Shown here: one piece after another, positions 61,080 through 64,000 of the stretch
Position numbering within the stretch: position 1 is the stretch's first letter
Layout: the number at the start of each line of letters is the position of its first letter
NCBI GenBank assembly: GCA_003963405.1
Contig: RXIY01000064.1
Span: 1-64,000, forward strand
Reading direction: 5' to 3'
Source of the DNA: Hyphomicrobiales bacterium
Lineage (GTDB): Bacteria > Pseudomonadota > Alphaproteobacteria > Rhizobiales > Beijerinckiaceae
Length of the DNA stretch: 64,000 nt
Notes under the pieces: generated by a model
The model's database searches: none
Told to the model about the DNA's origin: nothing
The model's input: the letters and a program-made list of their open reading frames with translations, nothing else
Translations under genes and position numbers: made by a program

Positions 61080-61475
61080 TCAAGCGGCGGGGCGCGGCGT
61101 CATCCAGGCGACGACCGCGCCGCCCGGCTCGGCGAGCACGGCCATGCGGCCGACGCCCGGAATGTCGAAAGCGTCCTTGCAGATCTTCGCGCCCGCCGCC
61201 GCGGCTTTGGCGAGGCGGGCGTCGATGTCGTCGACCGCGATATAGGTGAGCCAATGTTCGGGAACGCCGTCGAAGGCCGCGCCCTTCATTTCGAACATGC
61301 CGCCGACGCGGGCCTCCCCACAGCAGATGATCCAATAGGTCATGTCCGGCATGGTCATGGGCTCGAAACGCCAGCCGAGGGTCTCGGCGTAGAATGTCTG
61401 CGCGCGCGCGACATCGTGGACGGCGAGTTCGCTCCAGCACACGACGCCATGCGGCGCCTGCGGATCAGCGGCCAT
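61080..61475 (-). CDS. VOC-superfamily (glyoxalase-like) protein
   Basis: The 131-residue protein has one vicinal-oxygen-chelate module pair: GVVCWSELAVHDVARAQTFY (about 10-29) with ETLGWRFEPM, then HWLTYIAVDDIDARLAKAA and AVLAEPGGAVVAWM with the Glu ligand. His/Glu metal residues are only partly conserved. VOC proteins cover glyoxalases, dioxygenases and antibiotic-binding proteins, so the reaction is open. GGGAGAG lies before the ATG. It overlaps the upstream SDR gene by 11 bases and is the last gene of the thiamin-linked operon. Confidence 0.85.
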   Translation of the reverse strand: MAADPQAPHGVVCWSELAVHDVARAQTFYAETLGWRFEPMTMPDMTYWIICCGEARVGGMFEMKGAAFDGVPEHWLTYIAVDDIDARLAKAAAAGAKICKDAFDIPGVGRMAVLAEPGGAVVAWMTPRPAA

Positions 61476-62376
61476 TCTTCTCTCCCGTGGTAGAGGCGCC
61501 GAGCGCCTTGCGTATGTCGTGGAAGCCGAGCCGCCAGGCCGTCAGCCAATCGACGAGCCGCGCCGGCAAAAGGCCGATGAGTTCGCCGAGGGGCGAGCCC
61601 GTGCGCACGGGAATGCGCGCGGGCGGCCGCGACGCGGTGAGCGCCCGCAGCACGGCCTCGGCGACCTTTTCGGGGCCGGGCGCGGCGCGGCCGCCCTCGA
61701 CCACCCATTTCTGCACGCGGCGCGCGGCCGGGCCATAGACCGTGTCGTCGAAGGCGCTGAAATCGGCGCGCTTCGCCTTGTCCCAGATCGGCGTTGAGAT
61801 CATGCCGGGCTGAATCAGGATGAGATCGATTCCATAAACCGTCAGTTCGCGCCGCAGCGCGTCCGACATGCCTTCGAGCCCGAATTTGGACGCGTTGTAC
61901 GCGCCCAGAAACGGCGCCGCCCGGCGCCCCGCCACCGAACTCATATTGACGATGCGGCCGGGCGGTCCGCCCTGCGGGCGGCGCGCGCCGAGTAGCGGCG
62001 CGAAAGCCTGGATGACGCGCAATTGCCCCGTGAGATTGGTCTCGACCTGACGCTCGAAATCCGCGATCGGCAGATGCAGCAGCGGCCCCGGCACGGCGAC
62101 GCCGGCATTGTTGACGAGGCCAAAGAGCGTCGCGCCGGAGAGCCATTGCCCGACCTCGCGCGCGGCGCGGGCGATGGCCTCGCCGTCGGTCACGTCGAAG
62201 AGCAGGGCCGCGAAATTTTGTGGCCCGAAACGGGCCGTGAGCCGCTCGGCGTCCGCGTCTTTGCGCACCGAGCCGAAGACGAAAAAGCCCTTCTCGACCA
62301 GCAGCGCAACGCAGGCCTCGCCGATCCCCGTCGAGGCGCCGGTGACGACGACCGCGCGCTTTTGCTCACCCCCCAT
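61465..62376 (-). CDS. Short-chain dehydrogenase/reductase
   Basis: The 303-residue classical SDR has VVVTGASTGIGEACVALLVE (about 9-28), LFGLVNNAGVAVPGPLL, the Ser in NMSSVAGRRAAPFLG and the YxxxK catalytic pair in YNASKFGLEGM. The C terminus is extended (about 40 residues) and hydrophobic in LLPARLVDWLTAWRLG. The substrate is not known; such SDRs often act on retinol-like or fatty substrates. Start ATG 62376 overlaps the end of the thiE-amidase gene by 11 bases, and its own end overlaps the VOC gene by 11 bases. Confidence 0.88.
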   Translation of the reverse strand: MGGEQKRAVVVTGASTGIGEACVALLVEKGFFVFGSVRKDADAERLTARFGPQNFAALLFDVTDGEAIARAAREVGQWLSGATLFGLVNNAGVAVPGPLLHLPIADFERQVETNLTGQLRVIQAFAPLLGARRPQGGPPGRIVNMSSVAGRRAAPFLGAYNASKFGLEGMSDALRRELTVYGIDLILIQPGMISTPIWDKAKRADFSAFDDTVYGPAARRVQKWVVEGGRAAPGPEKVAEAVLRALTASRPPARIPVRTGSPLGELIGLLPARLVDWLTAWRLGFHDIRKALGASTTGEKNGR

Positions 62377-63784
62377 GCCCGGCTCCCGACAGATCGAGAA
62401 GACGGGCCAGCGCGTCGAGGGTGGAGGCGTCGGCGCGGCCGTCGACGCGCGCGCGGCGGAAGTGACGCTGAAAGGCCGAAACGGCGGCTGCGGTCTCCTC
62501 GTCATAGACGCCGGTTTCCGCCGTCTTGTAGCCGAAGGCGGCGAGCCGCCGCTGCACCTGCGAGACGGCGGGGCCGGCCATGTCGAGTTCGAGCGCCCCA
62601 TCCGCGTCCGCGTCCGGCGCGGGCGCCGCGACGTCGAGACCCACGCCCGCCGCGGCGAGCGCGTCCCAGGGAAAGAATTCGCCGGGGTCGATCTTGCGGC
62701 GCGGCGCAATGTCGGAATGGGCGAGAACGCGCTGTGGGGGGATGCCGCGGCGCGCGCAAATGTCCCGGCACAGCGCGACGAGCGCCTCGATCTGCGCGGC
62801 CGGATAGGGGTGCGGGTCGATATGGCCGGGATGGACGATTTCGACGCCGATCGAGGCGGAATTCATGTCGGTTTCGCCCGCCCAGAAACTCACGCCCGCG
62901 TGCCAGGCCCGGCGCGCCTCGGGCACGAGCTGCAGGACGCGCCCATCCTCCTCGACGACGTAATGCGCGGAGACTTCCTGGATGGGGGAGCACAGAAGCT
63001 CGAGCGCGCCCTCCGCGCTCGGCATGCCGGTGTAATGCAGGACGAGCGCCGAAACGGGGCGCAGCCGCGGGCCATGGTTGGGAGAGGGCAGAACGCTCGC
63101 GCCCGCGTGATCGGGCGGGAAGGGATCGACCAGTTCGCCCGCCTCGCGCCAGGGCGCGGTGGCCGCGATCCATTCCACCGTGCGCGATTCGGGATCGGGG
63201 GCGCGCAGAATATCCGTCACCACGCAGGCGCTGTCGGCGCCCGAGGCGAGAGCGAGGCAGGCGCGGCCCGGCGTCAACCCGCCGATGGCGACGAGCGGAA
63301 CTTCGCCCGCGCGCTTCTTCCAGTCGGCGAGCCGGTCGAGCCCCTGCGGCGCGAAGGCCATCTGTTTGAGCAGCGTCGGCCAGACCGGCCCGAGCGCGAC
63401 ATAATCCGGCGCGAGCGCGAGGGCGCGCTCGAGCTCGGCGTCGTCATGCGTCGAGACGCCGAACCGCAGGCCGTGGCGGCGCAGCACGGCAATATCGGCC
63501 GTGTCGAGGTCGCTCTGCCCGAGATGGACGAAATCGCAGCCGAGTTCGATCGCGAGCCGCCAGTAATCATTGACGACGAGCTGCGCCCCCGCCGCCCGGC
63601 ACAGATCGCGGGCGCGCGCGATCTCCGCGCGAAGCTCGTCCTCGGGACGATCCTTCACGCGCAGCTGCACGAGCTTGACGCCCAGCGGCAACAGACGCGT
63701 CAGCCAGTCGGAATGATCGACGATGAGATAGAAGGGATCGAGGCTCCAGGCGGTCAAAGGCGGCTCCTTGTCGGGGCAAGCCAT
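62366..63784 (-). CDS. Thiamin-phosphate synthase fused to AmpD/AmiD-type amidase and peptidoglycan-binding domain
   Basis: This continuous 472-residue frame combines two enzymes. Residues about 15-215 are ThiE-like: VQLRVKD (40-45), VNDYWRLAIELGCDFVHLGQ (71-90), YVALGPVWPT and VAIGGLTPGRA. A linker (about 216-240) leads into an Amidase_2 domain. Its zinc ligands are His250 (LHYTGM), His356 and Asp366, with Lys364 and Glu315 (IGVEIVHPGH), the same set as AmpD/AmiD. Residues about 400-462 form a peptidoglycan-binding repeat (VSQVQRRLAAFGYKTAETGV). There is no ATG near the junction and no signal peptide. The amidase should cleave the lactyl bond of muropeptides, and the synthase should join thiazole and pyrimidine. 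I know no such fusion; lost stop or sequence error is possible. Confidence 0.85.
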   Translation of the reverse strand: MACPDKEPPLTAWSLDPFYLIVDHSDWLTRLLPLGVKLVQLRVKDRPEDELRAEIARARDLCRAAGAQLVVNDYWRLAIELGCDFVHLGQSDLDTADIAVLRRHGLRFGVSTHDDAELERALALAPDYVALGPVWPTLLKQMAFAPQGLDRLADWKKRAGEVPLVAIGGLTPGRACLALASGADSACVVTDILRAPDPESRTVEWIAATAPWREAGELVDPFPPDHAGASVLPSPNHGPRLRPVSALVLHYTGMPSAEGALELLCSPIQEVSAHYVVEEDGRVLQLVPEARRAWHAGVSFWAGETDMNSASIGVEIVHPGHIDPHPYPAAQIEALVALCRDICARRGIPPQRVLAHSDIAPRRKIDPGEFFPWDALAAAGVGLDVAAPAPDADADGALELDMAGPAVSQVQRRLAAFGYKTAETGVYDEETAAAVSAFQRHFRRARVDGRADASTLDALARLLDLSGAGHGG

Positions 63785-63809
63785 AGACGAGCCCGCCGGC
63801 CCGGTCCAT

Positions 63810-64000
63810 TCACGCCACGTCGCCGAAAGGCCGGCCGAGCACGGGCGTCGAGGGCTCCGCCATGTCGCGGGGCGTCATGGGCCTGGAGAGGAAAGCGAGG
63901 CGCCCCGCCTGCGTCGCCAGGCCGAAGGCCCGCGCCATGCCGACGGGATCGCCCGCGCGCGACACCGCCGTGTTGAGCAACACCGCGTCATAGCCCATTT
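63810..64000 (-). CDS. thiG: Thiazole synthase, C-terminal part (5' end outside window)
   Basis: The frame is open to the window edge and ends at TGA/TAA-type stop 63810. The visible 62 residues, [20 protein letters not shown] and [19 protein letters not shown] followed by STPVLGRPF, match the C terminus of ThiG, which makes the thiazole ring of thiamin. It lies 25 bases before the thiE-amidase gene on the same strand, so the two form part of a thiamin operon. Its start and any TPP riboswitch are outside the window. Confidence 0.9.

Follow-up and report, generated by a model that had tools for sequence, protein, structure and literature searches.

A single open reading frame that joins a complete thiamine phosphate synthase (ThiE) to an AmpD-type cell-wall amidase was found in the 64,000-nucleotide stretch of DNA analysed here (the window), and the same one-frame arrangement was observed in 33 of 39 Methylocystis genomes, namely that of the window, G101 (another assembly of its species) and 31 more. 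We take the genus of the window to be Methylocystis from its named relatives, which include M. rosea, M. silviterrae and M. suflitae. By its sequence this is a genuine clade-wide fusion and a new domain pairing of two known enzymes. We regard as probable an explanation in which the fusion arose once and gives a single polypeptide in the cytoplasm whose two activities are independent of each other, those of thiamine phosphate synthase and of a 1,6-anhydro-muropeptide L-alanine amidase like Agrobacterium AmpD and Caulobacter AmiR, and in which the consequence for the cell is most likely regulatory. Neither allostery nor channelling would be required by this explanation.

The fused thiE-ampD frame occupies positions 62366..63784 on the minus strand and runs for 472 codons from an ATG at 63784 without an internal stop. 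Three complete domains were identified in it with Pfam, all of them far above their cut-offs. These are a ThiE (TMP-TENI) domain at residues 24-192 (63209..63715, minus strand; 156 bits against a cut-off of 27), an Amidase_2 domain at residues 242-369 (62678..63061, minus strand; 137 bits) and a PG_binding_1 domain at residues 404-459 (62408..62575, minus strand; 60 bits). The Pfam and NCBIfam scores thus bear out an earlier sequence-only reading of this DNA, which had described a complete ThiE domain, an Amidase_2 domain and a peptidoglycan-binding repeat in one frame. The junction between ThiE and the amidase lies at about residues 212-222 (63119..63151, minus strand), as placed by eye against the separate genes of strain KS32 and genome G025.

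The same reading had given the protein 472 residues; the frame of that length is present and uninterrupted, but its first nine residues are probably untranslated. The start is probably the TTG at 63757-63755 and not the ATG at 63784, which would give a protein of 463 residues. An AAGGAG at 63769-63764 is located 6 nt before this TTG, and the closest other species (G021, whose fusion is 86% identical) has a TTG at the matching position with a stop just upstream of it. Residues 1-11, with the exception of residue 4, were also predicted with pLDDT below 50 by AlphaFold2. In addition, a 622-codon antisense open frame was observed on the plus strand (62108-63976), which is probably a shadow frame of the G+C-rich DNA.

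The fused proteins were found to be 67-86% identical to the window copy, the same-species G101 aside, and their carriers include named isolates and large contigs. G101 has the same frame, 100% identical after rounding, on a contig of 3.6 Mb. Stops that were reported in four of the fused matches are at the alignment ends, outside the proteins' own starts or stops. A search for the joined protein in related genomes, which the sequence-only reading had proposed as a check, therefore recovered the same fusion across most of the genus. That reading had also raised a sequence error or the loss of a stop codon as alternatives. A sequencing or assembly error, a frameshift or a recently lost stop in the window strain now has a negligible probability, since the 33 genomes with the fusion include named isolates, large contigs and the second assembly of the species; nothing was found in favour of such an error.

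Separate thiE and ampD genes were observed in four of the 39 genomes (G007, G025, G033, which is strain KS32, and G034), where G034 was counted as separate with its thiE cut by contig ends and its ampD standing alone. The fusion locus was not found in one Methylocystis MAG (G028). In another MAG (G017) a frame-breaking deletion is located at the ThiE-amidase junction and both halves are apparently kept as overlapping frames. At L110:6000-6100 (MAG X3_MetaBAT.1, the same genome as L053), where a frame-breaking deletion is located at this junction, an ATG within the end of thiE might serve as start of the amidase frame; either this lineage has perhaps separated the genes again, or the assembly is in error.

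Outside the genus, a scan of the family (397 genomes in 43 genera, the 39 Methylocystis genomes included) gave no match that spans both domain cores among the matches listed, which are the stronger ones and among which a true fusion would rank high. A pattern scan of 84,980 species genomes gave 79 loci from the best 80 matches, and the 22 of these loci that are fused all belong to Methylocystis, Methylocystaceae or alphaproteobacterial MAGs. An apparent thiE-ampD adjacency outside the genus (G332) was rejected because the match overran a stop into unrelated DNA.

The fused group formed one clade with support of 100/100 in a tree of the RpoB/RpoC region (3084 columns, 28 genomes, G064 excluded), in which 17 of its members were sampled (15 of the 33 genomes in which the fusion was seen, together with G017 and G028). 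The four separate-gene Methylocystis genomes were placed as sister to this clade and the Methylosinus-type genomes outside. Such a single clade makes one origin of the fusion the most likely history. The gene tree of thiE and ampD grouped the KS32-type genes with one of the two fused subclades (support 95), which first suggested independent origins; however, a single fused clade is not rejected for these genes (AU p 0.517) and the RpoB/RpoC tree shows one clade, and independent origins were therefore discarded.

The genes around the fusion suggest how it was formed. Fused loci with enough flanking DNA have the order thiO-(thiS)-thiG-[thiE-ampD]-SDR, with ispG next in the M. rosea group. In the window, the SDR (short-chain dehydrogenase) gene (61465..62376, minus strand) shares 11 nt with the end of the fusion frame and is followed in the run by a glyoxalase/VOC-family gene (61080..61475, minus strand). 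The separate ampD is also followed by SDR and ispG in KS32, G025, Methylosinus sporium, Methylosinus sp. Ce-a6 and MAG FeB_33, while Methylosinus sp. Sm6 has SDR alone and MAG NC_groundwater_59 has ispG alone. Neither gene was found by the separate ampD of G007 and G034 within the available flanking DNA. These common right-hand neighbours suggest that ampD most likely kept its right side and that the thi operon arrived on its left. As judged from the relatives, a chromosomal rearrangement would have set thiOSGE directly upstream of ampD, probably joining a near-last codon of thiE to the start of ampD; the stop codon of thiE and the start codon of ampD would have been lost, and almost nothing else of either enzyme. 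For example, the separate ThiE of KS32 ends in ...EWLHATAEWRR and its separate AmpD begins with MSFVPDYKSARVVPSPNHG, and M. rosea reads ...EWLSATQPCRDGEGFFAPDYADARVCPSPNHG across the fusion junction. Taking the KS32 sequences as the ancestral ends (ThiE ...WRx and AmpD MSFxPDY), about 2-8 residues beyond these ends, counted by eye, separate the two complete enzymes. A clean reciprocal breakpoint, with fabB or moeA as the lost partner, was looked for in 10 fused and 3 separate-gene genomes, and none was found. The thiE-fabA and moeA-ampD neighbourhoods were observed only in KS32 and G025.

The N-terminal half scores above the curated NCBIfam cut-off for thiamine phosphate synthase (NF000734, 316 against 252 bits) and also exceeds that of TIGR00693 (149.9 against 145.1 bits). 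Its nearest solved structure by sequence is the thiamin phosphate synthase of B. subtilis (PDB 2TPS and 1G4T), and a Foldseek search with the AlphaFold2 model concurs. The two have the fold and conserved residues in common, although the B. subtilis enzyme is a single-domain protein and the fusion is multidomain. Residues Q40, R42, N72, D73, D92 and K140, which we take to be the substrate and catalytic residues of ThiE, were aligned to the B. subtilis enzyme 1G4T and found to be identical in all 32 fused sequences. Only one other TMP-TENI match above the cut-off was observed in the window genome, a weak one of 52.6 bits; it belongs to a diverged ThiE/TenI-like gene (L198:3973-4587, contig C47) located away from the thi operon.

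In the amidase half, residues H250, E315, H356, K364 and D366 were likewise identical in all 32 fused sequences examined, a set without G101, and the zinc and catalytic residues named in the sequence-only reading are thus intact. With roles assumed from AmpD, H250, H356 and D366 are presumably the zinc ligands, and K364 and E315 are conserved. Both active sites look intact, which predicts two working enzymes, and two independent, tethered enzymes would be the simplest reading of the protein.

The nearest solved structures to the amidase half are P. aeruginosa AmpDh2 (4BJ4, E 1e-45) and E. coli AmiD (2BH7, E 1e-34), and AmpDh2/AmiD structures also took Foldseek ranks 1-6 with the AlphaFold2 model. 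AmpDh2 and AmiD are envelope enzymes. An export signal is not expected in the fusion because ThiE leads, and by domain layout its amidase is of the AmpD/AmiR type, as in Agrobacterium and Caulobacter. The relatives nearest to it among studied proteins are AmiR of C. crescentus (CCNA_02650) and AmpD of A. tumefaciens (Atu2113), which act on anhydro-muropeptides in peptidoglycan recycling. Both are described in PMC13046382 and PMC9238390 as an Amidase_2 domain with a C-terminal PG-binding domain, a domain layout to which we liken the fusion. AmiR and Atu2113 are stand-alone proteins, whereas the Methylocystis amidase is fused behind ThiE in a thiamin gene run. AmiR was reported to cleave anhydro-muropeptides in vitro (PMC13046382), and the loss of Atu2113 to cause a build-up of muropeptides in the cytoplasm (PMC9790009) and derepression of the AmpC beta-lactamase (PMC9238390). 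By analogy, the Methylocystis amidase would correspond to the enzyme by which a related bacterium clears its AmpR-type signal of cell-wall damage.

The fusion missed the AmpD equivalog cut-off (NCBIfam PRK11789, 104 against 143 bits), and two separate alphaproteobacterial relatives were also below it (101 and 111 bits). The separate ampD products of KS32 and G025 begin with MSFxxDY and have no signal-like stretch by eye, and the N-terminus of the fusion is ThiE. The cytoplasmic, AmpD-like role that had been proposed earlier is consistent with this N-terminus and with the layout of AmiR and Atu2113, from which it is deduced.

In a profile search the fusion was the sole Amidase_2 match in the window genome. 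No further Amidase_2 match was found in 18 of the 33 fused genomes and at least one in the other 15, some of the genomes being incomplete. The M. rosea group, for example, has a second Amidase_2 gene of about 200 codons without a PG-binding domain (L197:2606-3211), and another short Amidase_2 gene without this domain (L201, G016) has neighbours that, judged by eye, resemble phage genes. NagZ is present in the window genome, and no match to the muropeptide importer AmpG above the cut-off was found in the three genomes tested, the window genome included. Outside the window, about 8 kb from the fusion (contig C40:71530-73524, L130:16531-18525), a gene for a solute-binding protein of family 5 was noticed (SBP_bac_5, 217 bits). 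According to PMC9790009, muropeptide import in Rhizobiales uses the solute-binding protein YepA.

An open junction is by itself weak evidence of a fusion, since in such G+C-rich DNA the 60 codons around it would lack a stop by chance with a probability of about 42%. The weight of the evidence is in its conservation, that is, in the 33 of 39 genomes and in the dN/dS of the junction. Over residues 203-233, a stretch into which both ancestral proteins extend with their ends, pooled dN/dS was 0.11-0.28 in four groups of relatives (16, 4, 4 and 2 sequences, 26 of the 32), which indicates purifying selection. Elsewhere the values were 0.10-0.18 in ThiE, 0.06-0.12 in the amidase, 0.09-0.20 in the PG-binding domain and 0.12-0.54 in the hinge before it. 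The only indel in the body of the fused proteins is one of three codons at 219-221, and the hinge and both ends vary in length.

AlphaFold2 predicted the fusion with a pLDDT of 89.6 and a pTM of 0.88, and the junction appears ordered (block means of pLDDT 90-97 over residues 201-240), which is no proof of an interface. The short junction of about 2-8 residues by eye, its predicted order and the pTM would suit a coupling at the protein level, in which the location, stability or activity of one domain would depend on the other; the amidase might, for instance, sense muropeptides and alter ThiE, or thiamin ligands might alter the amidase. However, the overall pTM proves no real interface and the pathways offer no rationale. 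No evidence was found to support the earlier suggestion that the thiamin domain is a partner or tether of the amidase, and we consider a coupling of this kind improbable.

We also think it unlikely that two proteins are made, whether by a separate amidase start within the frame or by cleavage of the finished chain. Start-like codons do recur within the fused frames (TTG at residue 193 in 23, GTG at 248 in 24 and ATG at 254 in 31 of the 32 sequences), and only three of the 32 are free of them over residues 205-249. Nine of the 32 have one near the SPNHG motif (five at -3, two at +5, one at -16 and one at -6), and the other 23 have none from -20 to +5 codons around it. However, the window has neither TTG 193 nor GTG 248; after a GTG at residue 203, the next ATG, GTG or TTG comes only at residue 254, which is past the first zinc ligand H250. 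A Shine-Dalgarno-like stretch of at least 4 bases was not found upstream of sites 193, 248 or 254 in any of the 32 sequences. Furthermore, residue 248 is inside a strand predicted by AlphaFold2, and we know of no protease site. The lack of an internal start codon and of a Shine-Dalgarno-like stretch makes a separate amidase start unlikely in the window genome; relatives may have one, and the amidase could conceivably be expressed from a promoter within thiE or be freed by proteolysis.

The fusion gene comes after thiO-thiS-thiG and a TPP-riboswitch-like leader. The window holds the 3' end of thiG (63810..64000, minus strand; the whole gene is at 63810-64610 of the contig), and thiS, thiO and then the TPP-riboswitch-like element (contig 65812-65971, minus strand) are located outside it, the element being 16 nt upstream of the thiO frame. 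This element matches RF00059 with 37.3 bits against an Rfam gathering score of 54.3 and has a long insert in one stem. Four other fused loci gave 38-52 bits, and G017, with 54.4 bits, is just over the gathering score and is the only fused-group locus scanned that passes it. All 22 fused loci whose upstream DNA is long enough have the TPP core motif (CTGAGA, then GAACCTGAT, then AGGGA), two more, L032 and L040, being too short upstream to judge. The motif precedes thiO in several separate-gene relatives too, with a different last block in G034, and it was not found in four more distant thiE loci. Its presence before thiO in separate-gene relatives suggests that the thi operon kept its switch and that ampD acquired it.

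The position of the amidase in a gene run with such a leader makes vitamin B1-dependent amidase synthesis the main predicted consequence of the fusion. The sole Amidase_2 domain of the window genome would now be on an mRNA with a TPP-riboswitch-like leader, and thiamin-replete cells would have less amidase. We hold tentatively, at somewhat less than even odds, that the riboswitch controls the muropeptide amidase, so that B1 status would set cell-wall recycling and damage signalling and the two activities would be kept at a fixed 1:1 ratio.

Nearly an even chance is given to a neutral accident, in which the merged genes are tolerated and both the tether and the riboswitch control are immaterial to the cell, a possibility that does not conflict with both enzymes working in a single polypeptide. 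A neutral fusion would persist only because a stop, a ribosome site and a start would all have to be gained at once to split it again. The domains and the junction evolve at ordinary rates, and the G017 junction was broken by a deletion, yet both of its halves seem to be kept. We also know of no metabolic link between the thiamin and muropeptide pathways. That 33 of the 39 genomes retain the fusion, with proteins diverged to as little as 67% identity, speaks against an accident, although short indels at the junction, such as that of three residues, are tolerated.

Automatic annotation, we presume, might name only one of the two fused enzymes. Three known fusions of ThiE or a ThiE-like domain have no cell-wall partner: fungal THI6 (PDB 3NL2 and others) joins ThiE to a second thiamin-metabolism enzyme, the multifunctional ThiE/kinase (PRK09517) joins thiamin-metabolism enzymes, and PRK08999 is a Nudix hydrolase with a ThiE-like part. 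Nothing on a ThiE-amidase fusion or on a link between B1 and cell-wall recycling was found among the matches listed from the open-licence PubMed Central literature, and the excerpt of a fusion survey (PMC4921024) gives no description of a ThiE-amidase fusion.

The Methylocystis gene is a clear natural example of a stable fusion of enzymes from unrelated pathways, with the separate and fused states both alive in sister groups, which makes the assumption that fused genes share a function testable. If the riboswitch controls the amidase, a vitamin would be wired to cell-wall recycling in these methane-oxidising bacteria.
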